A program made the translations under genes and the position numbers. A model generated the notes under the pieces. The model was not told the origin of the DNA. It worked only from the letters and a program-made list of their open reading frames with translations, and did not search any database. A stretch of 20,327 nucleotides of DNA from a virus. Location: positions 1 to 20,327 of IMG/VR virus record IMGVR_UViG_3300044830_000005. One strand, given 5' to 3'. Position 1 is the first letter of the stretch. Every line of letters begins with the position of its first letter. This document shows positions 2,395 through 18,942 of this stretch, in pieces.

Positions 2395-2618
2395 TTACAG
2401 TAACGGCAGAAGAATTGGCAAGCGCCAACACTGAAGAGAACACTCTGCGAAAGGTGGCGTTGATCATCGACAGTGTTGTTGCAAATCTAGACCAGGAAAT
2501 CGAAGTATCGGATCAACGTCTCGGTTTGCACATCCAGATTGGTGTGGATACGCTCAAGACTTTGCGTTCAACCATGTTCTCCATGTTTGGATACCGGGAG
2601 CCTGGCAACCTAAGCTGA
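2391..2618 (+). CDS. Small hypothetical protein
   Basis: A 75-residue protein, mostly helical and acidic at its N-terminal half, ending REPGNLS. GTG 2391 overlaps the preceding TGA as GTGA and is chosen for that reason; GTG 2382 adds three residues. No family is recognised. The stop lies 9 bp inside the 3' end of the oppositely oriented membrane gene, so the two transcripts converge and overlap. Confidence 0.65.
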   Translation: MITVTAEELASANTEENTLRKVALIIDSVVANLDQEIEVSDQRLGLHIQIGVDTLKTLRSTMFSMFGYREPGNLS

Positions 2619-3110
2619 CAAACCCTCTGTGCGTGCGTCAGCCAGTTTAGCTTCCGTGATCTGAGTGGCAACAGCCACCGCTTCCTGTACCACCCTCTCA
2701 GCTTTCGCGTCAAGATGGTTGTTGAGCAGCCCTGAGATCATGGGGACGGCGATAGCTACCAAGACGACGAATGTGTAGGCTGGCTGGCCAGGCGTAGCTG
2801 GACCCCAGTCCCAGGATACCGCCCAAACAACTAACGGTATCAAGGTTGACCATTGAATTGTGGCAGCCAGAGGCTTCCAATGTAACACGAAGATCTCGAT
2901 GACCTTCAACGAGCCAGCTACTAGGAAAATAACAGCCCATGTGTGCGCCGTGAAGATTGCTCCGGGGCCGTGGGCGAACACTACGGTAGTTGGCCTGTTG
3001 GCTGTGATGAGCAGAATCCCGCCGAGCCACAGCATCCAGCCCGCGAGCATTCCGATTCCACCAATGGTGACGGGACGTTCACGCCAAGCGCTTAAGAGAC
3101 CTGACTGCAT
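2610..3110 (-). CDS. Four-helix membrane protein, isolated reverse orientation
   Basis: A 166-residue protein with four predicted membrane segments, roughly residues 17-36, 54-74, 84-103 and 110-128. An Ala-rich amphipathic helix with alternating charge forms the C-terminus (about 130-160). It is the only leftward gene among rightward ones; its 3' end overlaps the 2391 gene by 9 bp, and its 5' end faces the 3223 operon across a 112-bp divergent gap. The Shine-Dalgarno before ATG 3110 is weak. No family is recognised. The layout of four helices plus a charged tail resembles the gene at 18328-18858, but I see no clear sequence match. A membrane or superinfection-exclusion role is possible but unproven. 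Confidence 0.7.
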   Translation of the reverse strand: MQSGLLSAWRERPVTIGGIGMLAGWMLWLGGILLITANRPTTVVFAHGPGAIFTAHTWAVIFLVAGSLKVIEIFVLHWKPLAATIQWSTLIPLVVWAVSWDWGPATPGQPAYTFVVLVAIAVPMISGLLNNHLDAKAERVVQEAVAVATQITEAKLADARTEGLSA

Positions 3111-3124
3111 GGACGTTGCTCAAT

Positions 3125-3155
3125 TCGATAGATGACCGGTTATGCTACCTATCGA
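3125..3155 (+). promoter_or_regulatory. Inverted repeat in the divergent gap, candidate operator
   Basis: TCGATAG (3125-3131) and CTATCGA (3149-3155) are perfect inverted arms 17 bp apart. Between them ATGACCGGTTAT is itself a near-palindrome (10 of 12 positions). The site sits between the divergent starts at 3110 and 3223, just upstream of the rightward -35 element, where a repressor or activator could act on both genes. Confidence 0.5.
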
Positions 3156-3166
3156 CATGCTCGCTA

Positions 3167-3195
3167 TAGAAAGAGCCGATATTACCTGATATAAT
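3167..3195 (+). promoter_or_regulatory. Sigma70-type promoter for the 3223-4390 operon
   Basis: A perfect TATAAT -10 lies at 3190-3195, with TAGAAA at 3167-3172 as the -35 (4 of 6 matches to TTGACA) and a 17-bp spacer. Transcription would start near 3202, leaving a short leader with a strong purine-rich ribosome site (GGAAAGGGGG, 3207-3216) before GTG 3223. It is one of the best-matching promoters I can see in the window. Confidence 0.7.
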
Positions 3196-3222
3196 GGCTT
3201 ACAAAAGGAAAGGGGGTGGACC

Positions 3223-3705
3223 GTGACCGCTGCAATAATGACAGGACGTGTCGTAAAGACGCATGGCACTATTACGTTGCTAAACGCGACGTATGAGATG
3301 ATCTCCCAGAAGGTTACCATGCAGAAGGCAGTACGCCTACTGTCGCTTGGTAAAGCTACCGTCGAGGAAGACGACGGGTCTGGGCGCATGCTCGGCCCGT
3401 GGCCATTCCCTAAGGTGCTTCGCCTAGTCAAGTTCGTGCAGATCGCATTCGACGTACTGAACGGTTCACCGCAGATCTCCAAGCAGGGCGTACTGAGACG
3501 TGACAACTACGAATGCGCTTACTGCGGCAAGGAAGCTAACACCGTTGACCACATTAACCCCAAGGATTACGGCGGCAAAACTTCCTGGATGAACCTAGTG
3601 GCGTGTTGTTTCAGGTGCAACCAGAACAAGCGTAACCGTACCCCTAGTGAAGCAGGTATGAAGCTCCGCAAGACTCCCTACGCCCCGAAAAGGAAGCTAC
3701 GATGA
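3223..3705 (+). CDS. HNH endonuclease
   Basis: A 160-residue protein. The C-terminal half is a clear HNH domain: ECAYCG (C98, C101), the VDHINPK core (D109, H110), N124 in WMNLV, and CCFRCNQNK, where C129 and C132 complete the zinc site. The N-terminal part (LLNATYEMISQKVTMQKAVRLL) matches the lead domain seen in HNH proteins of the 'NASYEPL...RAL' type. It would nick or cut DNA at a site not known here. It starts at GTG 3223 with a strong ribosome site and ends in TGA inside the ATG of the next gene. It may be a free-standing homing endonuclease, or a functional partner of the two downstream genes. Confidence 0.9.
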   Translation: MTAAIMTGRVVKTHGTITLLNATYEMISQKVTMQKAVRLLSLGKATVEEDDGSGRMLGPWPFPKVLRLVKFVQIAFDVLNGSPQISKQGVLRRDNYECAYCGKEANTVDHINPKDYGGKTSWMNLVACCFRCNQNKRNRTPSEAGMKLRKTPYAPKRKLR

Positions 3706-4211
3706 CAATTTCTACAACCCCAAAAGAGGGCGACTTCGGGGTTCTTCTCCTGAAGAAACGCAACTGGTTCAAGGAGACCGTTATATCGTTGGTCAGTTGG
3801 GGTACTCATTCCCCGGCCTATCACGCTGTCCTGGTAGTCAGGAACAGTAACGGCTTAGCGCTGGTTGAGGCCGAGCCAGGTGGGGCGATACTGTCACCTA
3901 TTGATAAGTATCAGGACATAGTGTGGTCCGATCTGGGACTCACTGACACGCAGCGTGCGGCTGTTAGTGCCGCTGGCCTATCCTATGTCGGCTACGAGTA
4001 TGGCTGGTACGCTGATGCCGCTATTGGCGTACACTCGGCCCTGCGTATCCCTATCCCGCAGTTCGTGTGGCGCTTGCTGTCTCGTGGTCATGTGATGGAA
4101 TGCGCCCAGCTTGTAGATGCCGCTGAGCTTAAAGCTGGCGTGCACCTGTTCAATGACGGTAGGCAGACCGGGCAGGTAAGTCCCGCATCTCTGTACGACC
4201 TGATCAAGTGA
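3702..4211 (+). CDS. Permuted NlpC/P60-type (YiiX/YebB-like) cysteine hydrolase
   Basis: A 169-residue protein with the order seen in circularly permuted papain-like NlpC/P60 proteins. It opens with a GDFGVLLL strand, then SPAYHAVLVV carrying the likely catalytic H41, then LVEAEPGGAI. The likely nucleophile C134 follows late, in VMECAQLVDAA. Known members act on amide or thioester bonds in peptides or lipids; the substrate here cannot be read from sequence. No signal peptide is evident. It is ATGA-coupled to the HNH gene and GTGA-coupled to the next gene. It is far from the lysis module, so a role in wall entry or host modification is more likely than lysis, as an inference. Confidence 0.7.
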   Translation: MTISTTPKEGDFGVLLLKKRNWFKETVISLVSWGTHSPAYHAVLVVRNSNGLALVEAEPGGAILSPIDKYQDIVWSDLGLTDTQRAAVSAAGLSYVGYEYGWYADAAIGVHSALRIPIPQFVWRLLSRGHVMECAQLVDAAELKAGVHLFNDGRQTGQVSPASLYDLIK

Positions 4212-4390
4212 TAGGCCCGCACGATTTAGTGATCAGCTACGGCGACTGCGAGTTCTTCGCGCAGTGCTCCTGTGGGTCAAGTTTCGGTACATGCCGACCA
4301 GATCAATCGCTTGACAGCTTCGGCCCCCACTGGGAGCGGCACGTATTGAGCGCCCACCGGGACTGTGATTGCTGGTCTTGCAAGCTATAG
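4208..4390 (+). CDS. Small Cys/His-rich zinc-finger-like protein
   Basis: A 60-residue protein starting at GTG 4208 (GTGA overlap). It has C20-x-C22-G and a distant H45-x4-H50 pair, a pattern typical of short phage C2H2-like zinc proteins. An extra CDCWSC cluster (C53, C55, C58) sits at the C-terminus. It ends 10 nt before a long inverted repeat. Metal binding is likely; DNA or RNA binding is only possible. It is the third and last gene of the cassette starting at 3223. Confidence 0.75.
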   Translation: MIGPHDLVISYGDCEFFAQCSCGSSFGTCRPDQSLDSFGPHWERHVLSAHRDCDCWSCKL

Positions 4391-4394
4391 GCAC

Positions 4395-4658
4395 TTAGCA
4401 AGAGACCCACTCGCCGTTAGTGATCCATCCGTGACATCCGCAATCAAGCAAATGGATGGATGGTACTACGGTGAGTGGGTCTCTTTGTGTTATGGTCCAA
4501 CCCTTATCAGGGTCGAGAGGCATGGTAGCCCAGAGGAACGGATCTTCAGGGTCGATGTCGTACCCAGCGTCAGACCAACGTACAGCCATATGAGAGCACT
4601 GGATTTCGAAGTGGTCTGCTACACGCTCAGACCAGCGCCAGCGAACTACGCTAGCCAC
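4395..4658 (-). CDS. Small hypothetical protein, possibly DUF6527-like
   Basis: An 87-residue protein starting at GTG 4658, within the end of the preceding leftward gene (13-nt overlap). Its C-terminal part, PSIHLLDCGCHGWITNGEW, resembles the 'PSI...C..HG(F/W)I.NG.W' signature I recall from DUF6527-type phage proteins; this is a weak match by eye. A competing rightward frame (4365-4721) covers the same DNA. It is rejected because it lacks coupling, a good ribosome site and any recognisable motif. The stop lies 5 bp past the stop of the opposing gene. Confidence 0.6.
   Translation of the reverse strand: MASVVRWRWSERVADHFEIQCSHMAVRWSDAGYDIDPEDPFLWATMPLDPDKGWTITQRDPLTVVPSIHLLDCGCHGWITNGEWVSC
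4400..4485 (+). terminator. Long inverted repeat, candidate terminator at the convergence point
   Basis: The arm 4400-4415 (AAGAGACCCACTCGCC) pairs with 4470-4485 over 16 bp with one G-U. Inside, ATCCATCC (4423-4430) pairs with GGATGGAT (about 4453-4460), giving a two-tier hairpin. It begins 10 nt after the last rightward stop and is followed by TGTGTT, a weak U-tract. It also lies inside the 3' coding end of the leftward 4395-4658 gene. It could terminate the rightward transcript, and perhaps act in both directions. Confidence 0.5.
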
Positions 4659-4981
4659 ACCGTGCCTGCACCAGTGCCAGTGACACCGACGTACAGGCCC
4701 CTGTTGGCGTTCACTTCGTAGCTGAACGAGTAGGTACCAGCACCGCCACCGACAGCCAGGACATCGCCTGTGTTGTCAGAGCCGTTGTAGAGGACGACCT
4801 GTGTGAATCCGGTGTATGCGAACCCTACTACACGCTGCGGTTGCTGTGGCACAACAATGCTGTGGTTGTTTGTGAGTGGCGCGTCGAACGGCTGACCCGT
4901 GAGAGGGCTCGTGGTGGTGCCTGTAAACCCTGCTGCACCGACTATTCCACTGCCCGTGAAGGCGACTGGCTGCACTTGCAT
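4646..4981 (-). CDS. Gly/Thr-rich beta-type protein, structural-like
   Basis: A 111-residue protein rich in Gly, Thr, Val and Ala with alternating beta-strand patterns (GSGIVGAAGFTGTTT, VVGFAYTGFTQVVLYNGSDN, YSFSYEVNANRGLYVGVTGTG). It has few charged residues and no cysteine. The composition resembles head-decoration, fibre-tip or carbohydrate-binding domains, but no family is recognised. AGGGAG precedes ATG 4981 at proper spacing. It is separated from the tail and lysis genes by about 14 kb of DNA-metabolism genes, unusual for a virion protein in this layout. Confidence 0.7.
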   Translation of the reverse strand: MQVQPVAFTGSGIVGAAGFTGTTTSPLTGQPFDAPLTNNHSIVVPQQPQRVVGFAYTGFTQVVLYNGSDNTGDVLAVGGGAGTYSFSYEVNANRGLYVGVTGTGAGTVWLA

Positions 4982-5001
4982 GTTATCTCCCTAGGCTCTG
5001 A

Positions 5002-5160
5002 TTACGCGTCAGATGAATCATCGTCAGTTTCCTGGGGCGTGATGGAGGTTGCCTGCTCATATTCCTCGGCAGTGTCGTGCTCCGGGCGTAGCTTCTCGAT
5101 ACGGGCACGTGCCTCTTTCAAGGTCAGGTCCGCGTCAACGAATGCGCGTTCTGTGGTCAT
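5002..5160 (-). CDS. Small acidic protein (52 aa)
   Basis: ATG 5160 has an excellent GGGGAGG ribosome site and opens a 52-residue frame ending in TAA at 5002-5004. The protein starts MTTERAFVDADLTLKEARAR, is predicted helical in its first 35 residues, and ends in a very acidic tail (ETDDDSSDA). Acidic helical miniproteins in phages sometimes mimic nucleic acid, but nothing here proves it. It sits 20 nt before the next start codon. Confidence 0.7.
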   Translation of the reverse strand: MTTERAFVDADLTLKEARARIEKLRPEHDTAEEYEQATSITPQETDDDSSDA

Positions 5161-5172
5161 GTCTACCTCCCC

Positions 5173-5376
5173 TCAGGGTCTAGATCCTACAAGCCAGGGA
5201 AGCCCCGAATAGTATGCGTCCGGGAAGTGCTTCAAAGCATGTATCGTCTCATAGAGGGTGGCGAACTCTGACCGCACAACGCCAAGACAGCGCAGCCACG
5301 AAGGGCGTACGCTGACTATGACGCCGGGGGAGTCGGGATGCCACAGCAACACTCTGTCCGTACGGTGGTACCTCAT
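5173..5376 (-). CDS. Small hypothetical protein
   Basis: A 67-residue protein rich in Trp, His and Arg (MRYHRTDRVLLWHPDS, PSWLRCLGVV, ALKHFPDAYYSGLPWL). ATG 5376 overlaps the stop of the preceding gene (ATGA at 5373-5376), which fixes the start. The pattern suggests a small beta/alpha fold; no family is recognised. Confidence 0.65.
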   Translation of the reverse strand: MRYHRTDRVLLWHPDSPGVIVSVRPSWLRCLGVVRSEFATLYETIHALKHFPDAYYSGLPWLVGSRP

Positions 5377-5891
5377 ACGCCACTGCCTACAGGGTTACGC
5401 GTCGGCGTGGGAGCTTTGACGTGAATGCCACGCTCGCCGCACCAAGGACACCACGGCTGTAGCTTCTTGTGCGTGACTGAACCGTAGATAATTTCAACGC
5501 CTGCCAGCTTAAAGAACACCGACAGTGCTAGGGCAAGCATCCCATGCACAAAGAACATGGCAACCACAAGCACGACCACCGCGCCCCAGTAAGCCTTCTT
5601 GTTGCCGTCCAGGATGTGCATGAGATGAAGGTGGATCTTGCGCTTCTGTGCTAGGCTCGCGCAATCCAGCGGCATTGATCTGGCGCAAGTCTCACACAAG
5701 CGTCGCGCATGCAGGTATAAGGCGACAAGGCTGGCAATCAACACAGCCATCGTGACCGGGGCGAATATCAATGACACCACGAAAGGAAGGATAAAGATAT
5801 ACGCCACAATGTCAAACGCGGCAGAGAGCACCAGCGTCCACATTGCTGTGGGCGCAGCGTAATGACCGAAGTCGATCTGTCTAAGCTTCAC
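5373..5891 (-). CDS. Membrane protein with two CxxC motifs
   Basis: A 172-residue protein. The open frame extends to 6113, but its first 74 codons only shadow the DUF6378 gene. GTG 5891 is chosen because it lies just after AAGGAG and overlaps that gene's stop by 11 nt. Hydrophobic segments occupy about residues 13-30, 36-52 and 99-125. Between them is LCETCARSMPLDC and near the end CPWCGERG, so two Cys pairs could form a zinc or redox site on one side of the membrane. No family is recognised. It sits in the run of small leftward genes after the RNR. Confidence 0.7.
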   Translation of the reverse strand: MKLRQIDFGHYAAPTAMWTLVLSAAFDIVAYIFILPFVVSLIFAPVTMAVLIASLVALYLHARRLCETCARSMPLDCASLAQKRKIHLHLMHILDGNKKAYWGAVVVLVVAMFFVHGMLALALSVFFKLAGVEIIYGSVTHKKLQPWCPWCGERGIHVKAPTPTRNPVGSGV

Positions 5892-6300
5892 GGGCTCCTT
5901 CTTCGATGCACTCCCAGCCACAACCTGCGTATCCCGCAATGTCGAGCCAGTGATCTTTCTTGCCGGGTGAAGTGACCATGCGGGATATCTTGGTGAGGAT
6001 TTGAATCGTTGCCACATCGGCAGGAGTGAACTCCATGCCCTCTTTGAACATGTGTTCGAATCGTGCGTTGAGCAGTTTCGCGGTGTTCGTGAAGTTGGCG
6101 ACCGGTGATCCATAGTTCTTGTTTCGGTCTCCGTCGATCAGCCCAGCAGACTCTTCGAGAAGTTGACGCCTAGGTGGAACATCGGCCTTCTGAACTGGTG
6201 GCTCAAATGTTGCGCCACGCAAGTCTCGGAGGACTGGTTCCTGCGTGGCGGCGTAAGACTCGCACGCCTCACGGAGACGGGGCGAATATCCTTCATTCAT
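5881..6300 (-). CDS. DUF6378 domain protein
   Basis: A 139-residue protein. Residues from about 50 onward carry the signature I associate with DUF6378: LIDGDRNKNYGSPVANF, then FTPADVATIQILTKISRM, then DHWLDIAGYAGCGWE. The domain is common in phages and is all alpha. The function is not established, although conserved Asp/Glu residues and the YGSP motif suggest a metal-linked nucleotide role. The first 45 residues are variable linker. ATG 6300 overlaps the end of the HNH gene, and the stop overlaps the next GTG. Confidence 0.85.
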   Translation of the reverse strand: MNEGYSPRLREACESYAATQEPVLRDLRGATFEPPVQKADVPPRRQLLEESAGLIDGDRNKNYGSPVANFTNTAKLLNARFEHMFKEGMEFTPADVATIQILTKISRMVTSPGKKDHWLDIAGYAGCGWECIEEGAREA

Positions 6301-6670
6301 CTGTTCCTACCATTCTGCCAACACGCTTACCGGTTGGCCTTATCGTACCAGTCACAGGACGGTTCCACAAGCTCAACCCAGTCTTACCCCGCCCCTCAGG
6401 GCCGATCAGGTAAGACAGGATTTCTTGAGCTTCACCCTTGGGGAGGGCGTACGAGTCGTGGACGAACTCGTGGTGCTCGCGGCAGAGTGTGATGAGGTTG
6501 GCCAAATGATCCTGCTGGTACCCTCTGCGGTATTCGATATGATGTATATCCACACCGGCATTAGTTCGGCCACACCATCGGCATCTATAATCATCACGCG
6601 CCCATACAAGTGCCTTGAGGCCGTCAGGCAATCCATGATAGCTAGCCTTCGGCACGAGACGGTCGCGCAT
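6293..6670 (-). CDS. HNH endonuclease (second copy type)
   Basis: A 125-residue protein with a compact HNH domain: YRCRWCGR (C30, C33), DIHHIEYRRG (H43, H44), N59 in LANLITLC, and C63-x2-H66. It is not closely related to the HNH protein at 3223. The frame is open to 6778, but ATG 6670 is preferred because the extra part shadows the gene upstream; GTG 6655 is another option. A basic C-terminus (RPTGKRVGRM) may bind DNA. It overlaps the 6642-6878 gene by 29 nt. It is probably a mobile, homing-type nuclease, because it interrupts a run of small conserved genes. Confidence 0.85.
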   Translation of the reverse strand: MRDRLVPKASYHGLPDGLKALVWARDDYRCRWCGRTNAGVDIHHIEYRRGYQQDHLANLITLCREHHEFVHDSYALPKGEAQEILSYLIGPEGRGKTGLSLWNRPVTGTIRPTGKRVGRMVGTDE

Positions 6671-6878
6671 CTGCCCGCTGAAGAACCCACAGCGCATCCA
6701 GGAGAGTCTGTAGATCCACACCGATAGCGGCCTGGGCCGTACTAGTCTCAGTGTCGTGACTCTCGTCATACTTGTCAATGGACATAAACAACGTGTCGCC
6801 TACCAAGCCGAGACGAAGCACCTTCTCGGGCGGTGCATACTTCTCGTTATGTTGCCTAATGGCGAGCGACTGGATCAT
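6642..6878 (-). CDS. Small hypothetical protein
   Basis: A 78-residue protein with a central beta-like stretch (VLRLGLVGDTLFMSIDKYDE) and a C-terminal helix (LQTLLDALWVLQRAD). ATG 6878 overlaps the preceding TGA (ATGA), which supports the start. Its 3' end is overlapped by the HNH gene, which may have arrived later. No family is recognised. Confidence 0.65.
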   Translation of the reverse strand: MIQSLAIRQHNEKYAPPEKVLRLGLVGDTLFMSIDKYDESHDTETSTAQAAIGVDLQTLLDALWVLQRADARPSRAEG

Positions 6879-7246
6879 GCTGCCTTCAGATCCATTGTAT
6901 CCCAGTCTTCAGCGTGAGGGTGCTCTTCTACCGTGTAGTTGCGGAGAGCTTCCTCATGGGCTAGCTGAGCCTCTTCCTGAGCCGCTAGAGCAGCCTCAGC
7001 TTGCGCGCGGAGCATGCCAGGCGTCTCAACGTTAACAATACCGCACTCTTCCACCACGAGCACGTGACGGCGAGACAGGTCACCGTCCTTGTTGGGCTCC
7101 AACAAGACCGACTTCACTCGCACGCGGACCTTCATGTCCAGGTACGTACCACGCGAGTACGGCTCTAGACATTCGATCCTGGCAGACGGAAGCTGCAAGA
7201 AGAACCCATTGACGACATCACCCTCAAACTCTGCGGGGCTACTCAT
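6875..7246 (-). CDS. Hypothetical protein, beta N-terminus with Ala/Glu helix
   Basis: A 123-residue acidic protein. The first 75 residues look beta-rich (FFLQLPSARIECLEPYSRG, DMKVRVRVKSVLLEP). Residues 78-105 form a strong Ala/Glu coiled-coil-like helix (LRAQAEAALAAQEEAQLAHE), followed by a short acidic tail. It starts and ends with ATGA overlaps. The N-terminal pattern looks like a conserved actinophage hypothetical, but I cannot name a family. Confidence 0.75.
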   Translation of the reverse strand: MSSPAEFEGDVVNGFFLQLPSARIECLEPYSRGTYLDMKVRVRVKSVLLEPNKDGDLSRRHVLVVEECGIVNVETPGMLRAQAEAALAAQEEAQLAHEEALRNYTVEEHPHAEDWDTMDLKAA

Positions 7247-7440
7247 AGGTCGCGGACAGTCTCACGGGCACGGAGCTTGGCGGGAGTGTAGCCGTCCACT
7301 GTCTTGCCGTTGAACGTGCCGGGGGCTACATTCTGACCCTTGCTGGCCTTCGCGCGCTCAGCATCAGCGGCACGGGCCTTCGTGTAGTTCTCGACATGCT
7401 TTGCCTTGCTCTTTTGTGACGAAGGCTTACTCCCAGCCAT
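7243..7440 (-). CDS. Small basic Lys/Ala-rich protein
   Basis: A 65-residue very basic protein (MAGSKPSSQKSKAKHVENYT, KARAADAERAKASKGQ). ATG 7440 follows GGGAGTG and comes just after the stop of the preceding gene, so the longer frame to 7515 is not used. The composition suggests a disordered nucleic-acid-binding protein, which is an inference. The stop overlaps the next ATG. Confidence 0.7.
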   Translation of the reverse strand: MAGSKPSSQKSKAKHVENYTKARAADAERAKASKGQNVAPGTFNGKTVDGYTPAKLRARETVRDL

Positions 7441-7441
7441 G

Positions 7442-7714
7442 TTACACTCCCATTCGCAGTGCGCGGTCAGTTTCCATACGCTCCACCGCAAGGGCTTCAC
7501 GAGTTCCACGTGCAATGTACCGCATAACGGACGGCCATGTCAAGCTAGTTACAACAAAACTTGTGATCGCGGTCTTCAAGCTGTCACCGTCTAGGTTCTT
7601 CTGCAATGCCCGCTCTACGGTGGAGAAGGTGCGACGGTATCCGACGATCAACCGTACCGTATATATCATTCCAAATGCGACATATGCGGCCAATGCGACA
7701 ATTACCAATATCAT
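7442..7714 (-). CDS. Small single-pass membrane protein
   Basis: A 90-residue protein with a membrane segment at residues 2-20 (ILVIVALAAYVAFGMIYTV) and a basic stop-transfer stretch (GYRRTF). A helical cytoplasmic part follows (about residues 30-88). ATG 7714 is preferred over TTG 7726 because GGAG lies about seven bases before it and the TTG overlaps that site. It is the first gene after nrdJ on this strand. No family is recognised. Confidence 0.65.
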   Translation of the reverse strand: MILVIVALAAYVAFGMIYTVRLIVGYRRTFSTVERALQKNLDGDSLKTAITSFVVTSLTWPSVMRYIARGTREALAVERMETDRALRMGV

Positions 7715-7762
7715 TGGTGGCTCCAATTTCGTTCCGGGGGAAGTATGTCCCCAGTCTACACG

Positions 7763-10030
7763 CTAAACGTCACATGCGCCAGCGAAGCACGCAAGCTCTG
7801 AAGTAGCCGTAGTCATATCCTGCAACTCATAGCGGTAGATCTTAGAGAAGTCAACATTGGGGAATGCGTCAACCATCTCTTTATACTCTACATCCGTTAT
7901 GGCCTCATATGGAAGCTGGTCATAAGAAGGGTTCTCTCGGGGCAGGAATGACAGCCCGCCGATCTTGTCCTTATTGTTCCATACCCACTTAATGACATCC
8001 AGTAGTTCATCATCCGAATAGGATACGGTACAGGACGGGTTATGCTCTGTCCAATTAGTCTTGCACTGCAACCAGAAATCCAACTGATTCACAGCGGACA
8101 AGTCGTCGCGGAGTATAGCACCATCAGGTGACTTCACAGGGAACGGGATCACCCACGTTGTAGCCGTCTCAGTCGTCTGACCGTTCTCCGGGTTCATCGG
8201 GACGCCAGCTTCCTTCATCGCCCTATACACGGGGGACGAACCAGACACCCGCATGTTGCGGCGGATGTACTTAGAGTGGCGAGCATGCAGACCGGAAGCG
8301 GTATTAAGCAGTTGAGACGAGTTGCCACCAGGCTTGTTGCATGTGATACCCGCCGAAGCATTTATTCCAAGGGTAGCGGCATAGGCAGCATTTACCGAAA
8401 CGGCATAGTCACGTAGCTCAGCCTGCACCCTAGGGTCACGGGCAATAGCCGAGTCCTGCATTCCCAGGATATCAACACCTAGCAGGCGTTCCTCTTCCTG
8501 ATTCTTAACCCATTCCTCTCGGAGCCCTGGGAAGTGGGTGGCCATTGACTGAATGGTACCGATGATGGTGGCCAATTCAACCTTCTCCTTTAGTGACTCC
8601 ACAGTATCATCCGCGCGGGCCACTGCAATAGAAAGGTTACACACCTGATATGGACGTAGAATGATTTCACCACAGGGGTTAGTTCCAAAGCGCGCCTTCT
8701 TCCTGCGGGCTGGCTTTGTACGTACAGCATTCTCTCTAGAGAAGATACCGGGCTCGCCATGCTTACCCTTATCCATATCGAGCATCTGCTGAATAAGCTC
8801 CTGCTGGTTTAGATCCTCTGGCCACACCGCTGAGTTGTTAGCGTTCCAGCGGATCGGGTTCTGGTCAAGCTTGATACCGTCCTTACATGTACGCATCTCG
8901 TGATCGTCCCAATCGAAAAGAGAGATCATGGCCGTACGGCGGACACCGCCCGAAACGGCGGCTTGACCGACAGCACACATCATGTCATGTGCATCTAGCG
9001 TACGAAGGAACTGACCTTGACGTGAAAGGATCTTAGCGCGACAGAATGTCAGCATCTCACGAAGCGGTCCCGGACCTGACGCACGACCACCCTTGCGGCG
9101 AAGTGGTAGACCAGCGCGACGTACCATAGTGTCATCGAACTTGATGTCTTCACCGTTGAACCACGTAGTCAGACCGACACGAAGAGCATCAATCCAGCCT
9201 TCCGTGGAGTCAGGGATGACGTAGGTAGCGATGTCCTGGTTCTTCTTTTGACGCTTGATCCTGGGAAGCGAATCCACGTAGTAGGACTCGACCGAGAAAC
9301 CTACGCCGCAACCACTCATGGAGATCAGAAGCCCTTCACAGAACGCTTCAAGATCCTTCACTGGTAGGTATGAACAGTTGAACAGGGCAAGGTTTTGGCT
9401 GCGCGCGTACTCGCCTGCGGTGGCCAGCATACGCATTGACGGCATGGCCTGCATGTTTAGGATGCCTTCACGAAGCCGGATATATGTTGCGTCGTCCAGC
9501 ATGTCCTGGGACAGTTCGCGGAGAAAATCTACCGTACGATCAACGGTTTCGATCCAGGTCTCACGTCGGCCTAATTCATAGTTGTATTTGCTATACTTGT
9601 CGAAAAACATGAACTGTTGTGCTTCGGTTGGGAAATACTGGGCTGCATCAGTGAAAGCGGCGCGAATGTCATCTGGCACATCACGGTTTTCGCGGTCATT
9701 GGCACGGTCGGCGCGGTGTAGGATGTAGCGTTTAGCGGCTTCAAACTCTCCTGCTGACTGTAGTACGATCTCTACGGTGTCCTGTACTCTCTCCACGCTA
9801 GCTAACTCGTTAGCAGGGATCTGAGCCGACACGGCGAGTGCTACACGTTCGGTGATCTCAGTTGCGGACACCTTAGGTGTTGAATCACAGTTGGCGTAGC
9901 AGCGAGCTACGGCCTGTTCGATACGATTGAGATCGAATGCTACTGTGCGTCCGTCGCGCTTTACAACTTGGACGGGAAGGGTGTGTCCTGCTTGTTCTGC
10001 GTAATAGGCTACCTTGTGGGCGTTGGCCAT
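7763..10030 (-). CDS. nrdJ: Class II (adenosylcobalamin-dependent) ribonucleoside-triphosphate reductase
   Basis: A 755-residue protein that reduces ribonucleotides to deoxyribonucleotides with a radical generated from coenzyme B12. Residues about 18-105 look like an ATP-cone (VVKRDGRTVAFDLNRIEQA), an allosteric domain. The core carries C219 (FNCSY), the catalytic NPCGE (N451, thiyl C453, E455) and C464. The C453-to-C464 spacing of 11 equals that of the Lactobacillus leichmannii enzyme (C408, C419). GGRASGPGPL and SGGVRRTA are typical of this class. C748 and C753 near the C-terminus are the shuttle cysteines. No NrdAB-type second subunit is needed or visible. AGAGGAAAAG precedes ATG 10030. 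It supplies dNTPs for phage replication and needs host or scavenged B12. Confidence 0.95.
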   Translation of the reverse strand: MANAHKVAYYAEQAGHTLPVQVVKRDGRTVAFDLNRIEQAVARCYANCDSTPKVSATEITERVALAVSAQIPANELASVERVQDTVEIVLQSAGEFEAAKRYILHRADRANDRENRDVPDDIRAAFTDAAQYFPTEAQQFMFFDKYSKYNYELGRRETWIETVDRTVDFLRELSQDMLDDATYIRLREGILNMQAMPSMRMLATAGEYARSQNLALFNCSYLPVKDLEAFCEGLLISMSGCGVGFSVESYYVDSLPRIKRQKKNQDIATYVIPDSTEGWIDALRVGLTTWFNGEDIKFDDTMVRRAGLPLRRKGGRASGPGPLREMLTFCRAKILSRQGQFLRTLDAHDMMCAVGQAAVSGGVRRTAMISLFDWDDHEMRTCKDGIKLDQNPIRWNANNSAVWPEDLNQQELIQQMLDMDKGKHGEPGIFSRENAVRTKPARRKKARFGTNPCGEIILRPYQVCNLSIAVARADDTVESLKEKVELATIIGTIQSMATHFPGLREEWVKNQEEERLLGVDILGMQDSAIARDPRVQAELRDYAVSVNAAYAATLGINASAGITCNKPGGNSSQLLNTASGLHARHSKYIRRNMRVSGSSPVYRAMKEAGVPMNPENGQTTETATTWVIPFPVKSPDGAILRDDLSAVNQLDFWLQCKTNWTEHNPSCTVSYSDDELLDVIKWVWNNKDKIGGLSFLPRENPSYDQLPYEAITDVEYKEMVDAFPNVDFSKIYRYELQDMTTATSELACFAGACDV

Positions 10031-10087
10031 TGTGTTTCTTTTCCTCTCACAGCTTTGTGTTCGGTGGAACTGGTAGCATCGACACCC

Positions 10088-10300
10088 TCATTGGTGCAAG
10101 ATTTGAGCCACTTCCTCAACATAGAATTGGTCCCCCAGCGCGGGGTCGCGCATCACTTGAGCGCCCCGGTAATACTCGGGGTACGGGTTCCCCCATCCGA
10201 TCCAGTGATCAATTAAACAGTCAGGCCCAATCCAGATGACCGGCGCGGGGAGCCTACACTTCACAAGCCTGGCGTCTAACTCTTCCTGCGTAGTGTTCAC
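10088..10300 (-). CDS. Small hypothetical protein
   Basis: A 70-residue protein starting at GTG 10300, which overlaps the stop of the primase-helicase (GTGA). The longer open frame to 10357 is a shadow of that gene. It contains a Trp/Asp-rich centre (VIWIGPDCLIDHWIGWGNPY) and an acidic C-terminal helix (YVEEVAQILHQ). No family is recognised. It lies between two replication genes and 57 bp before nrdJ, so it may act in DNA metabolism, as guilt by association only. Confidence 0.65.
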   Translation of the reverse strand: MNTTQEELDARLVKCRLPAPVIWIGPDCLIDHWIGWGNPYPEYYRGAQVMRDPALGDQFYVEEVAQILHQ

Positions 10301-12492
10301 GGAATCAGAGTCCCTTGGTCGTACGCTTCCTCGTCGGGCGTGTAGACATAGCGCCACATGTAGGGTGACGTACGGGAACCTGAGCCCTCACGAACGAAGT
10401 CAGGGTGGCGGTCCAGGATGTCCAGAAGGAATACCTGCACACTGTCCGGCTTGCAACCGAAAAGTGCTGATGAGGCATGAAGGAAGGATGTCTGCTCAAC
10501 AGGGCAAGCTGCGAGTAGCGCGTTCGCTACATTGTCATAGTTCAAGTGCTCCTTCTTACCACCCTGCCACGGAGAGTCGGACAGGTCATCACTGTCATCG
10601 AACGAGTAAGGCTGAATGCTGGTATACGCCAGCGACTCCTTGCTGCGTCCCAGCAGTAGCGGATCGGGTTGTGCGGCGTCACGGAAAGCAACGAACGAAG
10701 CTACAGTCGTGAACGGGTCTTGCACCGAGCGGTTCTTGAAGTTCAACAGCACCGTACCGTTCACCCAACCCGTCCACAAGAACGAGCCTACCACAGAGTC
10801 CACGTCCGGCGCACCTGAAGAGTTACTACCCTTGCGTTGGTGGTGCGTCAGGACCACAGAGACGCCCGTTTCCTTGATAACGTAGTCCAGGGCATCGAAC
10901 GCCTTACGGAGACCGCTAGAGCGCTCTACATCACCTTGGAAGAACTTGTACGCCGTGTCCAGAATGATTACCTCAGCGTTGTTCGCACGAATCAGGTTGA
11001 TGAGCGAATCGCCAGCGCCCTCCTGGTCAAGGATGAGGCTGAACTTGTGGTCCACGAGCAGCTTATCTTCCGCCAGCTTCAGCGCAGGACGGTTCTCGAT
11101 GAGAGTGTCCAGCCTGTCGAACAAGGAACGCTCGGATAGCTCACGATCCAGCAACAGCACGCGGTGACCCGGCGTGATGTTGTCGTTAGCGATGGGGAAC
11201 TTCTTGAGGAACGGGACACCGGCAGCGATACTCAACGCCAGGTTTTCAATGAAGATCGACTTCCCCGTCTTCGGGGCACCCGTCACCAACAAGCGACCAC
11301 CCTTAGGTAGAAGGCCGTCACCAACCAGGAACACCGTCTCCGGTGGGGGATCTGCACGGACCTGACTAAGCGTACGAACAATGTACTTGTTGTTGCCCTT
11401 ACCGTCAACAAGCTCCTGAAATTCAAGGAACGTGTGGGCGTCACGCATTAGATACTCGTTGATATCCGTCTTTGGTGAGTTCTCATCTGGCAGTGGCAGT
11501 ACGACATTCTTGGCGCGGTGAGCAAAGAAGTCCCGAATCTTCGCGGCAGCTTCCTGACCGGGATTGTGTCCCGAGCAGTCGTCCTTCTCTGTTGTGCTGC
11601 AACGACGGCAAGGGCCTTTCTGGTGGGCGAGCGGGTTATCATTATCCATGACAACGATGACTTCCTTCGCCTTCATGAAATACTGTGCCCACTCAGCCTT
11701 AAAGCTAGACGCTCCTGGAATAGAGACAGCAGCCAGCCCGTGACGCGTGAGCAGCATAGCCTTGAACTCGCCCTCACAAATGTACACGCGACCATCTGCG
11801 CCACCGTCTGCGTCGGAAGGGTTGAACAGCCGTATAACGCCGTCAGCTTCAGGGTCGATAACGATAGAGCCAGGGTTGTCCCCATAGCCCTCAGCGCGCT
11901 CCCACCAATACTTTGAGCCATTCGGACCACGCTTCTGCGGGTCGTAGTAGCGGAAGGCGATTGGGCGACGGTTCACGAGATACGGGATAACGTACGCGTC
12001 CTGCTTAGGGTCGAAGCCGAGACGGAACCGGTCAATCTCAATGTCACGCATACCCTTGTCCTTAGCCAGGAACTCACGGTGGCTTGGACGCAGGTTGGAC
12101 TGGTATTCCTTGAGGATGGTATCCTTGTTCTTGAACTTCGTCATGAGAGTCGGGTCAGCGATAACGCCGAAATACTTCTCAAGCGTCTGAAGGTTCCCCT
12201 TCTCACCACACGAACCTGACTGGCAGTAATACTGGCTTGTCTTATGGTTCATGTAGAAGTTCGTTGAATTCTTCTTATCCAATGCACCGGGTTGTTCATG
12301 GAATGGGCATAAGAACTCCCACTGATTGTTACTAGGCGTCATCCTGCGAGGCAGATATCCATTAGCCTCAAGCAATCTCTTCGCCGCTTCACCATCCGTA
12401 TTGACGCCCGCCCTGTGAGAACCGGAGCTACCTCCGACTGATGCGGTAGACGATCCCTTTTTCTTTGCCTCAGTCACGACTAACCGTGCCAC
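10297..12492 (-). CDS. Primase-helicase (zinc finger, TOPRIM, RecA-like ATPase)
   Basis: A 731-residue protein for fork opening and primer synthesis. In order: a DnaG-type zinc finger (CPFH at 62-65, then C90 and C95); TOPRIM with EGE (240-242) and DNDN (283-286); a small Cys/His insertion just after it (C295, C298, C306, H309); then a RepA/DnaB-like RecA fold. That fold has Walker A GAPKTGKS (405-412), Walker B VIILDTAYKFF and the SVVLTHHQRKG sensor strand. The frame opens at 12561, but those first codons lie in a perfect hairpin. GTG 12492, with GAGGGAG five bases before it, is chosen. It is GTGA-coupled to the small gene that follows. Strand polarity and primer specificity cannot be read. 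Confidence 0.92.
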   Translation of the reverse strand: MARLVVTEAKKKGSSTASVGGSSGSHRAGVNTDGEAAKRLLEANGYLPRRMTPSNNQWEFLCPFHEQPGALDKKNSTNFYMNHKTSQYYCQSGSCGEKGNLQTLEKYFGVIADPTLMTKFKNKDTILKEYQSNLRPSHREFLAKDKGMRDIEIDRFRLGFDPKQDAYVIPYLVNRRPIAFRYYDPQKRGPNGSKYWWERAEGYGDNPGSIVIDPEADGVIRLFNPSDADGGADGRVYICEGEFKAMLLTRHGLAAVSIPGASSFKAEWAQYFMKAKEVIVVMDNDNPLAHQKGPCRRCSTTEKDDCSGHNPGQEAAAKIRDFFAHRAKNVVLPLPDENSPKTDINEYLMRDAHTFLEFQELVDGKGNNKYIVRTLSQVRADPPPETVFLVGDGLLPKGGRLLVTGAPKTGKSIFIENLALSIAAGVPFLKKFPIANDNITPGHRVLLLDRELSERSLFDRLDTLIENRPALKLAEDKLLVDHKFSLILDQEGAGDSLINLIRANNAEVIILDTAYKFFQGDVERSSGLRKAFDALDYVIKETGVSVVLTHHQRKGSNSSGAPDVDSVVGSFLWTGWVNGTVLLNFKNRSVQDPFTTVASFVAFRDAAQPDPLLLGRSKESLAYTSIQPYSFDDSDDLSDSPWQGGKKEHLNYDNVANALLAACPVEQTSFLHASSALFGCKPDSVQVFLLDILDRHPDFVREGSGSRTSPYMWRYVYTPDEEAYDQGTLIP

Positions 12493-12530
12493 GCGGACTC
12501 CCTCATCTGTTTCGTGTCGAAATAAGTAGA

Positions 12531-12564
12531 GCCGTGGGAGGCAATTGAGCCAGCCTCCCACGGC
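12531..12564 (-). terminator. Perfect 12-bp hairpin before the primase-helicase gene
   Basis: GCCGTGGGAGGC (12531-12542) and its exact complement (12553-12564) enclose a 10-nt loop. In the leftward transcript the stem is followed by TCTACTTATTTC, a loose U-rich run. It lies between the ssDNA-binding-like gene and the helicase start, so it could be a leaky terminator or attenuator that lowers helicase expression, or a processing site. Confidence 0.6.
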
Positions 12565-12594
12565 CCGCCGAACCGGTATTCAGTTGTGTAGATG

Positions 12595-13074
12595 TTAGAA
12601 GTCCGGCTCGTCCAACGGAAGAGCTTCCGTCTGCGGTGCTGCCGGGGCGAATGAAGCGTCAAAGCTCAAGAGGGCACCAACGGTGTGCTGACGACCGCCA
12701 GCCTTCTTGTCGTAGCTGCTGATGATTGCACGAGCCGACAGCCCCTCAAGGTTGTCCGTGTCAAGCTCGAACCCTGTTTCCAGCGGTCCGATGTTCAGAA
12801 GCGCCTCAGCCCACTGACGAAGCTTGTTGTCGGGATGAGAAGTGAGGTTGGCTCCGGTGTTGCCCCAGATCGGGTTACCGATCAGGAAGCCGAACTCACT
12901 GTCCAGCGCGCTAGGCACTGAATCGACCTTGAACTTGAAGTCGAGCTTCTGGAATGAACCAGAGCCGTCCTTGCGCTCAACGTCCTTGACGGTTACGGTG
13001 TCAACGGTGACGCCGATGATCGTGTCATCGGGGAGTACCGCGAAATCCTGCTCTGTTACTGTCAAAACTGCCAT
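12595..13074 (-). CDS. Single-stranded DNA-binding-like protein (DUF669/OB-fold type)
   Basis: A 159-residue protein. The N-terminal 115 residues are beta-rich (VLPDDTIIGVTVDTVTVKD, FQKLDFKFKVD, FGFLIGNPIWGNTG) and compatible with an OB-fold or DUF669-like phage ssDNA-binding protein. The C-terminus is a disordered Ala/Pro linker ending in the acidic, aromatic tip EALPLDEPDF, the usual SSB feature for recruiting partner proteins. It sits between the Sak4-like ATPase and the primase-helicase, the place expected for a phage SSB. Fold assignment is by pattern and context, since phage SSBs diverge strongly. Confidence 0.75.
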   Translation of the reverse strand: MAVLTVTEQDFAVLPDDTIIGVTVDTVTVKDVERKDGSGSFQKLDFKFKVDSVPSALDSEFGFLIGNPIWGNTGANLTSHPDNKLRQWAEALLNIGPLETGFELDTDNLEGLSARAIISSYDKKAGGRQHTVGALLSFDASFAPAAPQTEALPLDEPDF

Positions 13075-13116
13075 TGCTGTGTTGCCTCTCTTGTTTGTTG
13101 TATGCGTTGTTACGCG

Positions 13117-14586
13117 TTATTTTGTTGTTGCTGCCACGAGTCGCTTGTAGTCCTTGAAACATGCTGCCTTCTTATAACGCGAGAGTGACAAGGTGCCAAT
13201 CTCGGGGTCGTCAACGTTGTGCGGATCTTCGCCGTCCGCAACGTACTCACAGGGAGTGTCGGTGGTGACGGTTCGGTTGATTACCTGAGCGCCTGGGAAC
13301 GTCTCCTGCACGTTCTTCAACGCTTCCGTGTCGTTGATTACTGTATCTTCGACGGGTGTATCAGGGGTTGTAACGGATGGCGTCTCCCCAGATGGGGCGT
13401 CTTCGGCATGTCCAGATTCTACCACTTCGGCAGCCTTTGCGCTAGCCTTGGTGGCCGGTGCAGACTTCTTGTCTACAGGTTGTGATGTCTCCCCGTTGAA
13501 TGCTTCCACCGCTGTCAGATACTCAATGAGATCCTGAAGGCTCACGCCAGATGCACCAGCGGCAGCGTCGGCCTTCCATGCGATAAAGTAACGGATGACC
13601 TGACGTGCCTTACCTAGGTTCCAAGTCTTCAGATCTTCTGGAACCGCGAGATTGTGGGCCTTGTATTCTTTTTGGACAGCCGTGATGCCACCCGCGTTGA
13701 TCGGATCACCGTCGTCGGGCTTTGCTGTACCAGTATTACCCTTCGGGCTGCTCGGACTTTGAGCCGCTGGCTTCGTTCCAACTGCCGCTGCTGGGGTTGA
13801 TGTTACAGGTGTGGCAGCAGGTACGTCAATAGCTACGACAGCACTGGTCTCATTGCGTACGATACCATTGAACACTGCGCTGTGCAGGACCGCGAACTCA
13901 GGCTCAGAGATCGGTGAGAGACGGCCAGCAGCACGGTTACCCAAGTGAGGGTTCTTCGCGTCACCTTCGTTCTTCAACACGTACTTGATAGCCTTCTTGC
14001 CTTGCGCGTCAATGCCAGGGATACGCTCACTGAGCAGCGAGAAGTCCACGTACCCGGCGATCTCGTCACGGATGCCACCCTGCAATGCTGGGGCGTAGAT
14101 GAGTTTCTTCTCATCATCCTGGGTTGACTGCGTGTGCACCGTGAACACCGTGTTGATCGGGAGAGCAACGAACGCCTTAATGATGGTGGCCATCCGCTCC
14201 TTAAGCGTACCCCAGTCGGCCTGCTGCATCTCAGTGCGCTTGTTCTCCTTCATGATTTCCTTCTTCATCATCTCCTGCCACGCGTCAAGCGTGTCGATAG
14301 CGAAGGTCTCAATGTCGTCCAAGCCCATAGCTTCAGCGGCCTTCTTGCGAAGGTTCGCATCACCTAGAATGATGTGCAGTTCCTTCAGCTTGCCTGTGGA
14401 ATCAATGTCCACGTAGTTCACGTGCTTGTGGGCAATGGACATGAGTCCAGCTTCCACGGCACCAATGACGACGTTAGGGCACGTAGCCAGAAAGGATGTC
14501 TTGCCGCTCTTCGGCGGTCCTAGAAGAAGGATATTGAGATGACGTGGATAGTTAGCGTCACCGGTTGACTTGAACTCAATTGCCAT
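13117..14586 (-). CDS. Sak4-like RecA-family ATPase with long C-terminal extension
   Basis: A 489-residue protein. Residues 15-250 form a RecA/RadA-like core of the phage AAA_24 (Sak4) type: Walker A GPPKSGKT (23-30), Walker B FAIDTL (95-100), INTVFTVHTQ, and a GGIRDEIAGYVDF segment. Sak4 proteins assist single-strand annealing and recombination with phage SSB. Typical members are about 220-300 residues, so the last 230 or so are extra. These comprise Ala/Pro/Thr-rich linkers and a helical block (ITAVQKEYKAHNLAVP, ARQVIRYFIAWK). The final segment is a small Cys-bearing tail (TPCEY, SLSRYKKAACFKDYKRL). It starts 2 nt after the Cas4-like gene ends, forming a recombination operon. Confidence 0.85.
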   Translation of the reverse strand: MAIEFKSTGDANYPRHLNILLLGPPKSGKTSFLATCPNVVIGAVEAGLMSIAHKHVNYVDIDSTGKLKELHIILGDANLRKKAAEAMGLDDIETFAIDTLDAWQEMMKKEIMKENKRTEMQQADWGTLKERMATIIKAFVALPINTVFTVHTQSTQDDEKKLIYAPALQGGIRDEIAGYVDFSLLSERIPGIDAQGKKAIKYVLKNEGDAKNPHLGNRAAGRLSPISEPEFAVLHSAVFNGIVRNETSAVVAIDVPAATPVTSTPAAAVGTKPAAQSPSSPKGNTGTAKPDDGDPINAGGITAVQKEYKAHNLAVPEDLKTWNLGKARQVIRYFIAWKADAAAGASGVSLQDLIEYLTAVEAFNGETSQPVDKKSAPATKASAKAAEVVESGHAEDAPSGETPSVTTPDTPVEDTVINDTEALKNVQETFPGAQVINRTVTTDTPCEYVADGEDPHNVDDPEIGTLSLSRYKKAACFKDYKRLVAATTK

Positions 14587-14588
14587 TG

Positions 14589-15461
14589 TTAGAACTCCCA
14601 GCTATCGTTGCCTGATATGATTGTCAAGCCCATTTCCTCTTCACGCGTAGGCAGTCCACAGTTGTTGCGGAACTCGCAATATTCGCATGTCTCGCCAGTC
14701 ACAGTGGGAACCCAAATGTCCGCTTTCTGCGACTTGTCGATCTGGTCTATTGTGTACGCTAATCTGGTGTAGTGTACAGGTACGCGCTCCCCCGCGTCAA
14801 TACGCTTGGCGAGACGGAGATGAACCCACTCCGCTAGCCTTGGCGCGGACATGTACCTCTCGTATAGCTCTGCACCGTTTTCGATGTTCACCCAAAATTC
14901 GGGGCGCGTGGTCGCGTAGCAGTAGGCGTGGAACTGAATGTCGTGGCGCAAGTAATCTCTCGTGGGTTGCTTGCGGCTCGTCTTATAGTCGGACACAAGG
15001 ACACCGAAGCCACCGTCCTTGAGAGGACGCAGCGCGAGCTTGTCCAGGGTGCCTGTAAGCTGATGGTCACCTACATCTACGGTGAAGTTGTACTCGCGGG
15101 CCAGCACTACGTCAGACTCCCACTGGATCAGTGACCACCAGTCGCGGAGGATCTTATGCCCGTCTGTGGAGTAACCTACATGACTGTTCCTGGGCATGAT
15201 GTAGTCGTACGCAAGGCTGACCTCTCCGGGCTGTATAGGTTCACAGTCTTGGTTGTAAGCTTCCAGATTGTCCCATATTGCGTTGAATCTGTCAAGGCCA
15301 CCCTGGTAGCTGTACGACTTCTCCATGTGGAGGATAGCGTCGTGGATCACTGTGCCAAACGAGAGGGCGCTGGACTGTTCACGGGGGTAGCCCTCTTGAG
15401 CCCATTTCACCTTCAGCGCACAAGAACTGTAGGTTTTGATGGTCGATTGGCGGATCAGCAT
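14589..15461 (-). CDS. Cas4-like PD-(D/E)XK nuclease with Fe-S cluster
   Basis: A 290-residue RecB/Cas4-type nuclease. Visible motifs: H40 (FGTVIHDAI), D140 (GTLDKL), D158-Y-K160 (VSDYKTS), and Q176 in the QFHAY motif. C14 (YSSCALK) together with C259, C262 and C268 (CEYCEFRNNC) matches the four cysteines that bind a 4Fe-4S cluster in Cas4/AddB-type nucleases. It probably trims DNA ends to 3' single strands for the Sak4-like recombinase downstream. No CRISPR array or Cas1 is present here, so this is the stand-alone phage form. ATG 15461 has a good GGAGACG site. It is the first gene behind the candidate promoter at 15511. Confidence 0.9.
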   Translation of the reverse strand: MLIRQSTIKTYSSCALKVKWAQEGYPREQSSALSFGTVIHDAILHMEKSYSYQGGLDRFNAIWDNLEAYNQDCEPIQPGEVSLAYDYIMPRNSHVGYSTDGHKILRDWWSLIQWESDVVLAREYNFTVDVGDHQLTGTLDKLALRPLKDGGFGVLVSDYKTSRKQPTRDYLRHDIQFHAYCYATTRPEFWVNIENGAELYERYMSAPRLAEWVHLRLAKRIDAGERVPVHYTRLAYTIDQIDKSQKADIWVPTVTGETCEYCEFRNNCGLPTREEEMGLTIISGNDSWEF

Positions 15462-15510
15462 GCGTCTCCAAACGGATCAAGAGGCCCGCCCAAATCGGAC
15501 GAACCCCCTG

Positions 15511-15519
15511 ATTGTAGCA
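15511..15519 (-). promoter_or_regulatory. Extended -10 promoter for the replication/recombination operon
   Basis: On the minus strand TGCTACAAT (15519 to 15511) gives an extended -10 (TG-n-TACAAT, 5 of 6 matches). No good -35 is visible, as expected for this type. Transcription would begin near 15504, about 43 nt before ATG 15461. It lies in the 72-bp gap between holin and Cas4-like genes, where late and DNA-metabolism genes should separate. Confidence 0.5.
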
Positions 15520-15533
15520 CAAACTACTGACAG

Positions 15534-16031
15534 TTAGCCAGCGTTTGCAACTCCGTTGTGCTCAACGTTCTCGTGCTGCCCGCTGTACTCAGCGTGGGCA
15601 AGGTCAGGGCCAGACACCAGGGATGCTGCGGTAATTGTACCTGGCTTGTTGAACGCGATCAGACCCTTGATGAGGGCAGTCATCGCAGCAGTGAATCCGA
15701 TAGCTGCGGCAGCTTGCCAACTAGCATGAACAACATCCGTGGCACCGGAGGCGATCAGTGTAGCGCCGAAGGATGCCAGGAAGGTCTTCACGACGCGAGC
15801 TATTAGGTCTAGCTTGCCCGGAAGGACTCCCAACGGAAGCTGTGCGGCCCACATGATGATGGACAGCGCAGCGGCGAACAGGGCCGTGAGTCCGGCAACC
15901 TGCCAGTTCTGCTGAAGTAGAAGGCCACCGGAACCGGTTGCCAGGAGCACGACAGCGAACTGCTGGACGAAGGTAGAACCAGCACGCTCTAGCGGGTCTA
16001 GAACATACTTAGTGACGAAAGCTGATGCCAT
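15534..16031 (-). CDS. Holin
   Basis: A 165-residue protein with four hydrophobic segments, about residues 24-41, 45-63, 80-98 and 103-122, starting LDPLERAGSTFVQQ. The C-terminal tail is polar (GPDLAHAEYSGQHENVEHNG). The N-terminal pattern and layout resemble r1t-type actinophage holins, which form membrane lesions that release the endolysin. It directly follows the endolysin gene (15-bp gap), which supports the call. AGGAG precedes ATG 16031. A sharper family call needs a profile search. Confidence 0.8.
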   Translation of the reverse strand: MASAFVTKYVLDPLERAGSTFVQQFAVVLLATGSGGLLLQQNWQVAGLTALFAAALSIIMWAAQLPLGVLPGKLDLIARVVKTFLASFGATLIASGATDVVHASWQAAAAIGFTAAMTALIKGLIAFNKPGTITAASLVSGPDLAHAEYSGQHENVEHNGVANAG

Positions 16032-16046
16032 AGTGTGCGCTCCTAG

Positions 16047-17225: not shown

Positions 17226-17300
17226 AACTGGCTCGTTTCCTCTCCTGTGGTTGTGTTCATACCTAATTGTTCGACCACGGGAAGGACGGATCACACTACG

Positions 17301-17933: not shown

Positions 17934-17939
17934 AGCTGA

Positions 17940-18858: not shown

Positions 18859-18863
18859 GGATT

Positions 18864-18920
18864 ATTGGCCTGTCGTTGGTTGGTTGGTTGGTCCTCTGTA
18901 GTATCGGCGGATAGGCCAAT
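18864..18920 (-). promoter_or_regulatory. Hairpin with CCAA-repeat loop before the 18858 start
   Basis: ATTGGCCT (18864-18871) and AGGCCAAT (18913-18920) form an 8-bp stem, extendable by one or two imperfect pairs. The 41-nt loop of the leftward transcript contains four CCAA units; the opposite strand reads GGTTGGTTGGTTGG (18878-18891), a two-layer G-quadruplex candidate. The 3' arm of the stem ends five bases before ATG 18858 and covers the only AGG near it. It could block ribosome entry or mark the 3' end of the tail transcript. Confidence 0.45.
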
Positions 18921-18942
18921 TGAATCCGAACATCAAGATCGA

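Follow-up and report, generated by a model that had tools for sequence, protein, structure and literature searches.

Three coupled phage genes for an HNH nuclease, a permuted NlpC/P60 hydrolase and a putative zinc-binding protein as a candidate moron-like accessory unit

The nucleotide composition of phage morons often differs from that of the phage that carries them, a difference that is common without being obligatory. In permuted NlpC/P60 enzymes, a Cys/His dyad works with a third residue, which is polar, and with a tyrosine, and a fatty acid is bound in YiiX (PMC3142127). Phospholipase activity has been demonstrated for a permuted enzyme (PMC12994826), and LnsA is involved in the N-acylation of lipoproteins (PMC7387801). 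HNH genes, in turn, are the commonest coding genes of mycobacterial and mycobacteriophage tRNA arrays (PMC5966550, PMC6409571). Here, we analyse a phage locus that encodes an HNH nuclease, a permuted hydrolase and a small zinc-type protein in one cassette. With moderate confidence, we explain it as an accessory (moron-like) unit, i.e., three independently moving phage genes at the junction of convergent arms, in which the nuclease, the hydrolase and the zinc-type protein would have the separate roles proposed below.

The window, by which we mean the whole stretch of DNA that was analysed, is a linear IMG/VR virus record of 20,327 bases. It encodes a B12-type ribonucleotide reductase, a primase/helicase, a Sak4-like annealing protein, an exonuclease, a holin and a GH25/LysM endolysin, and the affinities of these and its other proteins indicate a phage that probably infects actinobacteria. 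The genes at 75-2618 lie on the plus strand, 2610-3110 on the minus strand, the cassette at 3223-4390 on the plus strand and everything at 4395-20298 on the minus strand. The gene at 2610-3110 is the lone minus-strand gene to the left of the hairpin at 4398-4488, to the right of which all genes are on the minus strand. The features of the cassette and its surroundings are as follows.

2610-3110, minus strand: divergent neighbour, a 166-aa hydrophobic protein without known family (open reading frame list and family searches)
3125-3155, no strand assigned: inverted repeat TCGATAG-17-CTATCGA, previously termed operator-like, with 7-bp arms at 3125-3131 and 3149-3155
3167-3195, plus strand: promoter-like site, TAGAAA, 17 nt, TATAAT with extended -10; consensus match only
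3223-3705, plus strand: free-standing HNH endonuclease, 160 aa, GTG start (HNH_5 3e-13, HNH 2e-11, phrog_16726 3e-32)
3702-4211, plus strand: permuted NlpC/P60 (YaeF/YiiX-like) cysteine hydrolase, 169 aa, with H41, E56, Y100 and C134 (phrog_1128 4e-12, alignments, AF2, Foldseek)
4208-4390, plus strand: 60-aa putative zinc-binding domain protein with invariant H5, C14, C20, C22 and H45; predicted beta-beta-beta-alpha
4395-4658, minus strand: convergent neighbour, a DUF6527 protein of 87 aa (PF20137 1e-7, above the curated cut-off; phrog_15183 2.5e-6)
4398-4488 (about 4395-4490), no strand assigned: long hairpin that starts 8-10 nt after the last cassette stop, within the coding 3' end of the DUF6527 gene

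The preliminary description had reported three coupled plus-strand genes between oppositely directed neighbours and had assigned them to an HNH nuclease, a permuted NlpC/P60 hydrolase and a small zinc protein. Both the arrangement and the assignments are borne out, with zinc binding regarded as putative. The three open reading frames are enclosed by the minus-strand genes 2610-3110 and 4395-4658 and overlap by 4 bp of stop and start codon at each junction (ATGA at 3702-3705, GTGA at 4208-4211), and the GTG at 3223 is preceded by a good ribosome-binding site (AAAGGGGG). Further to the left, the plus strand carries a tRNA-Leu(UAA)-like sequence at 1428-1507 with a reduced D arm, which scored 21.4 bits against the Rfam tRNA cut-off of 29, was missed by ARAGORN and could be a degenerate phage tRNA or a remnant. 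Directly 3' of it lies a nearly perfect 46-nt palindromic hairpin at 1539-1584 (ATGTATACGTTCGC...), probably a terminator or a processing signal.

The proposal that the cassette is an undescribed three-gene system received little support from comparison with relatives. Searches with each protein and its alignment in phages and viral contigs, and with the hydrolase only in bacterial genomes, found no other locus with all three genes, and the three families are scattered across different phages. A profile scan of the collected loci yielded 91 with the hydrolase, which form 23 clusters at 55% identity, and 88 for the HNH set (27 clusters). Most of the 91 hydrolase loci lack an HNH gene of the window type; it lies near the hydrolase gene in two phages among them, L002 and L105, and a zinc-domain gene occurs about 1 kb from the hydrolase in one, L093. 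Separate occurrence in relatives, named beforehand as the observation that would speak against a joint system, thus prevails, although these partial pairs are still found close together. With its genes separated in nearly all relatives, the cassette has the look of ordinary accessory cargo and not of a new system, but recurrence of the pair of HNH and hydrolase in two other phages suggests that some of this linkage may be functional.

L002 encodes both the closest hydrolase relative (63%) and the closest HNH relative (57% identical, with one zinc cysteine lost), on the same strand and with four tRNA genes between them. The region L002 1-8967 holds 33 tRNA genes in 9 kb, among which both genes lie. 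In L105 the order is reversed, with the hydrolase gene before the HNH gene and a tRNA-Cys between. The hydrolase tree places L002 next to the window with support of 99. L105 belongs to a looser clade, together with L024, L025, L031 and L044, and is the only member of that clade with a strong HNH profile match. An all-against-all comparison of neighbours over the 23 clusters revealed no partner that is conserved beside the hydrolase gene; the neighbours that recurred were limited to terminase, endonuclease VII and HNH genes, in three to four clusters. The largest neighbour group (14 clusters) was discarded, as it consists only of opposite-strand open reading frames that overlap or adjoin the hydrolase gene and that by eye were taken for antisense frames. 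In two unrelated loci, open reading frames that by eye are staphylococcal-nuclease-like (L003 6554-6880 and L188 7542-7913) are close to the hydrolase gene.

The HNH protein has the HNH (beta-beta-alpha-metal) motif and the Cys4 zinc site of HNH endonucleases, and both the four cysteines (C98, C101, C129, C132) and the core residues D109-H110, N124 and N133 are intact in the alignment. Full-length relatives are encoded by Gordonia, Arthrobacter, Microbacterium and cyanobacterial phages. The window has a second HNH endonuclease gene at 6293-6778 on the minus strand. The 60-aa product of the third gene has relatives in gp60 of Rhodococcus phage E3 and gp45 of Streptomyces phage Kromp, and its Cys and His residues are conserved among relatives, which suggests that it may bind zinc; no significant fold match was found for it in the PDB.

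For the hydrolase, H41, Y100 and C134 are present in all 56 rows of the alignment, so that both residues of the permuted order, His before Cys, are invariant, and E56 is kept in 39 of the 56 (Gln in 10). The spacing of 15 residues from His to Glu equals that of H49 and E64 in BcPPNE (positions from PMC3142127). The AF2 model (pLDDT 88.3) matched the solved structures 3KW0 (Foldseek E 1e-4, probability 1.00, TM 0.62) and YiiX 2IF6 (E 5e-4), as well as C92-type phage proteins in BFVD (E 2e-11). A Pfam search with the window protein gave no match, PF05708 (Peptidase_C92) included, and its best relative reached 26.9 bits against the PF05708 cut-off of 27. The protein hence shares the fold and superfamily of C92 but is not a Pfam C92 member by sequence. 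The label 'enoyl-CoA hydratase/carnithine racemase-like' that some phage genes of phrog_1128 carry (e.g., in L018 and L022) appears to be wrong, as fold and residues are those of a permuted NlpC/P60 enzyme. Because enzymes of the same fold act on lipids, the substrate of the phage hydrolase could, by analogy, be a lipid-type acyl or amide bond.

The signals around the genes had been described more firmly than they deserve. The extended -10 (TGnTATAAT) is perfect (TGATATAAT, 3187-3195) and ends 27 nt 5' of the GTG start codon, but 'near-consensus' overstates the promoter-like site, because its -35 TAGAAA is poor (4/6) and because two such sites were found versus 1.4 expected. A perfect extended -10 arose in 0.9% of shuffles of the 112-base intergenic region and was present somewhere in 22% of shuffled whole windows. 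An operator role of the repeat at 3125-3155 was abandoned, as an equally good inverted repeat appeared in 9% of shuffled intergenic regions, which is near chance. The terminator-like hairpin stands as a strong structure (-58.6 kcal/mol, z = -8.2) that folds on both strands; however, it lies inside the DUF6527 gene, which had gone unmentioned, its U-tract is weak (TCTCTTTGTGTT) and a terminator scan did not call it. Both arms are coding sequence, formed by the last ~30 codons of DUF6527, and no free intergenic space is left. Among 2000 synonymous recodings of these codons, none equalled the hairpin on the plus strand and one did on the minus strand, so the DUF6527 protein sequence alone does not explain it. 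The plus-strand RNA is untranslated here, directly downstream of the last stop, which suits a terminator, and we consider a terminator or an arm-junction hairpin probable. A search for DUF6527 relatives in phages and plasmids, made to judge conservation of the hairpin, gave no match.

One syntenic relative of the window was found, L189, whose NrdJ is 77% identical. The order NrdJ, w6875, HNH w6293 and w5881 is kept in L189, where the HNH at the place of 6293-6778 has 66% identity. Beyond the homologue of w5881 the two genomes differ, and where the window has the genes from 5376 to 2610, L189 has other genes and ends in an excisionase-like gene, HTH-17, and a tyrosine integrase (6682-8604), which suggests that the phage group probably includes temperate members. 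None of the three cassette genes has a homologue in L189. Synteny followed by divergence places the cassette in a genome end that varies among these phages, but L189 does not offer a clean empty site, and no relative turned up in which the two flanking genes enclose one. The preliminary designation as a moron-like unit is reasonable. The promoter-like site, the coupling, the hairpin at the end and the absence from L189 speak for it, but the G+C content and GC3 of the cassette match those of the rest of the window (0.551 versus 0.547-0.549) and give no compositional sign of recent import.

The main rival to an accessory unit is that the cassette has no autonomy and is the distal part of the rightward, plus-strand arm, split from 75-2618 by the reversed gene 2610-3110, with a shared terminator in the hairpin and a promoter of secondary importance. 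We regard this as rather unlikely, although the gene layout invites it: left of the hairpin all genes but 2610-3110 are on the plus strand, right of it all are on the minus strand, and the rightward arm may therefore end with the cassette, the two arms meeting at the hairpin. Folding of the hairpin on both strands and a cassette G+C content that matches the flanks fit as well. Read-through from the left, however, would have to cross 500 bp of opposed gene, and the perfect extended -10 directly upstream of the cassette is rare in intergenic shuffles. Alternatively, the HNH enzyme could be a free-standing homing endonuclease of tRNA-array regions with the hydrolase and zinc-type genes as hitch-hiking passengers. 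HNH genes are frequent in such arrays, as noted above, the HNH and hydrolase genes lie close together among tRNA genes in L002 and L105, and the window has its own tRNA-Leu-like sequence. Yet the raw proximity of a tRNA within 1 kb (28 of 91 hydrolase loci, 33 of 88 HNH loci) shrinks after clustering to 5 of 23 and 11 of 27 clusters. In a clustered within-locus control, tRNA density was 0.27 per kb near the hydrolase versus 0.4-0.6 at 1-4 kb, and 0.7-0.8 per kb near the HNH gene versus 0.5-0.8 at 1-4 kb. As tRNA genes are thus no denser next to either gene than at a distance, a functional tie of either gene to tRNA arrays was dropped, and we hold the homing scenario to be improbable.

A dedicated conflict system of three cooperating proteins for superinfection exclusion or anti-defence, with nuclease and hydrolase effectors and a zinc regulator, would account for the translational coupling and for the partial pairs in L002, L105 and L093. 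It is very improbable in view of the absence of any other locus with all three genes, the lack of conserved neighbours over the 23 hydrolase clusters, and a PADLOC search in which the nuclease had no more than generic HNH-domain matches (PtuB, Cas9) and the other two proteins had no match. Remoter still is a version in which several tRNA-rich phages share a linked pair of HNH nuclease and permuted lipid-type hydrolase, and in which this pair was extended here by a zinc-domain regulator to a coupled three-gene superinfection or competition system. Least probable of all, the hydrolase could be a cell-wall amidase or endopeptidase of the lysis or entry apparatus, as its NlpC/P60 superfamily and the annotation of a relative in phage Samy as 'putative amidase' might suggest. 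The permuted topology and YiiX-like fold argue against this, as do the absence of a visible signal or wall-binding domain and the position of the holin and endolysin genes at 15534-17294, away from the hydrolase; with its own holin and GH25/LysM endolysin, the phage does not need the hydrolase for lysis.

We therefore prefer the accessory unit of independently moving genes, for which the following model can be proposed. Transcription would start near 3202 and stop in the hairpin at 4398-4488. The HNH protein might be a free-standing nuclease that cuts DNA at specific sites, as enzymes of homing or of competition between phages do, and thereby help its own locus to spread. The hydrolase, which has no visible signal sequence, would be cytoplasmic and could use a Cys134-His41-Glu56 triad with Tyr100 to attack, through an acyl-enzyme, an acyl or amide bond of lipid type in the host (an N-acyl lipid, a lipoprotein or a phospholipid), modifying the infected cell without lysing it. 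The 60-aa zinc-type domain may bind nucleic acid or protein. Joint action of the three proteins would not be required.

As a combination, the three genes appear to reflect ordinary phage mosaicism. What the analysis settles is the hydrolase family: a widespread phage gene often labelled 'enoyl-CoA hydratase-like' or 'peptidase' encodes a permuted NlpC/P60 enzyme with a complete catalytic set, and this assignment leads to a testable chemistry on lipid-type acyl or amide bonds. Compared with described systems, the cassette resembles phage morons in being a small unit that has promoter-like and terminator-like signals and is opposed to its neighbours, but it differs from them in that neither an empty-site relative nor a compositional difference was found. 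The hydrolase shares the permuted His-Glu-Tyr-Cys set, the fold and a similar size with BcPPNE (3KW0) and Escherichia coli YiiX (2IF6), whereas it is phage-encoded and too divergent for the Pfam C92 cut-off. Closer in sequence are the phrog_1128 or 'peptidase' genes of Streptomyces phages (Circinus gp102, Ibantik gp61, Samy SAMYPH_45), with 32-34% identity over nearly the whole length, which occur alone or with other neighbours and often in tRNA arrays. The HNH protein is 40-44% identical over its full length to free-standing phage HNHs of phrog_16726, such as Gordonia phage GodonK gp53 and Arthrobacter phage Atuin gp160, and has the N-terminal 'LLNxxYexi...RAixLLlxGKA' domain in common with this type, which is found without a hydrolase or zinc partner, unlike in the window. 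Finally, the H-x8-C-x5-C-x-C ... WERH pattern of the 60-aa protein is shared with the C-terminal domain of E3 gp60 and Kromp gp45, where it is part of proteins of 114-173 aa, whereas in the window the domain stands alone.
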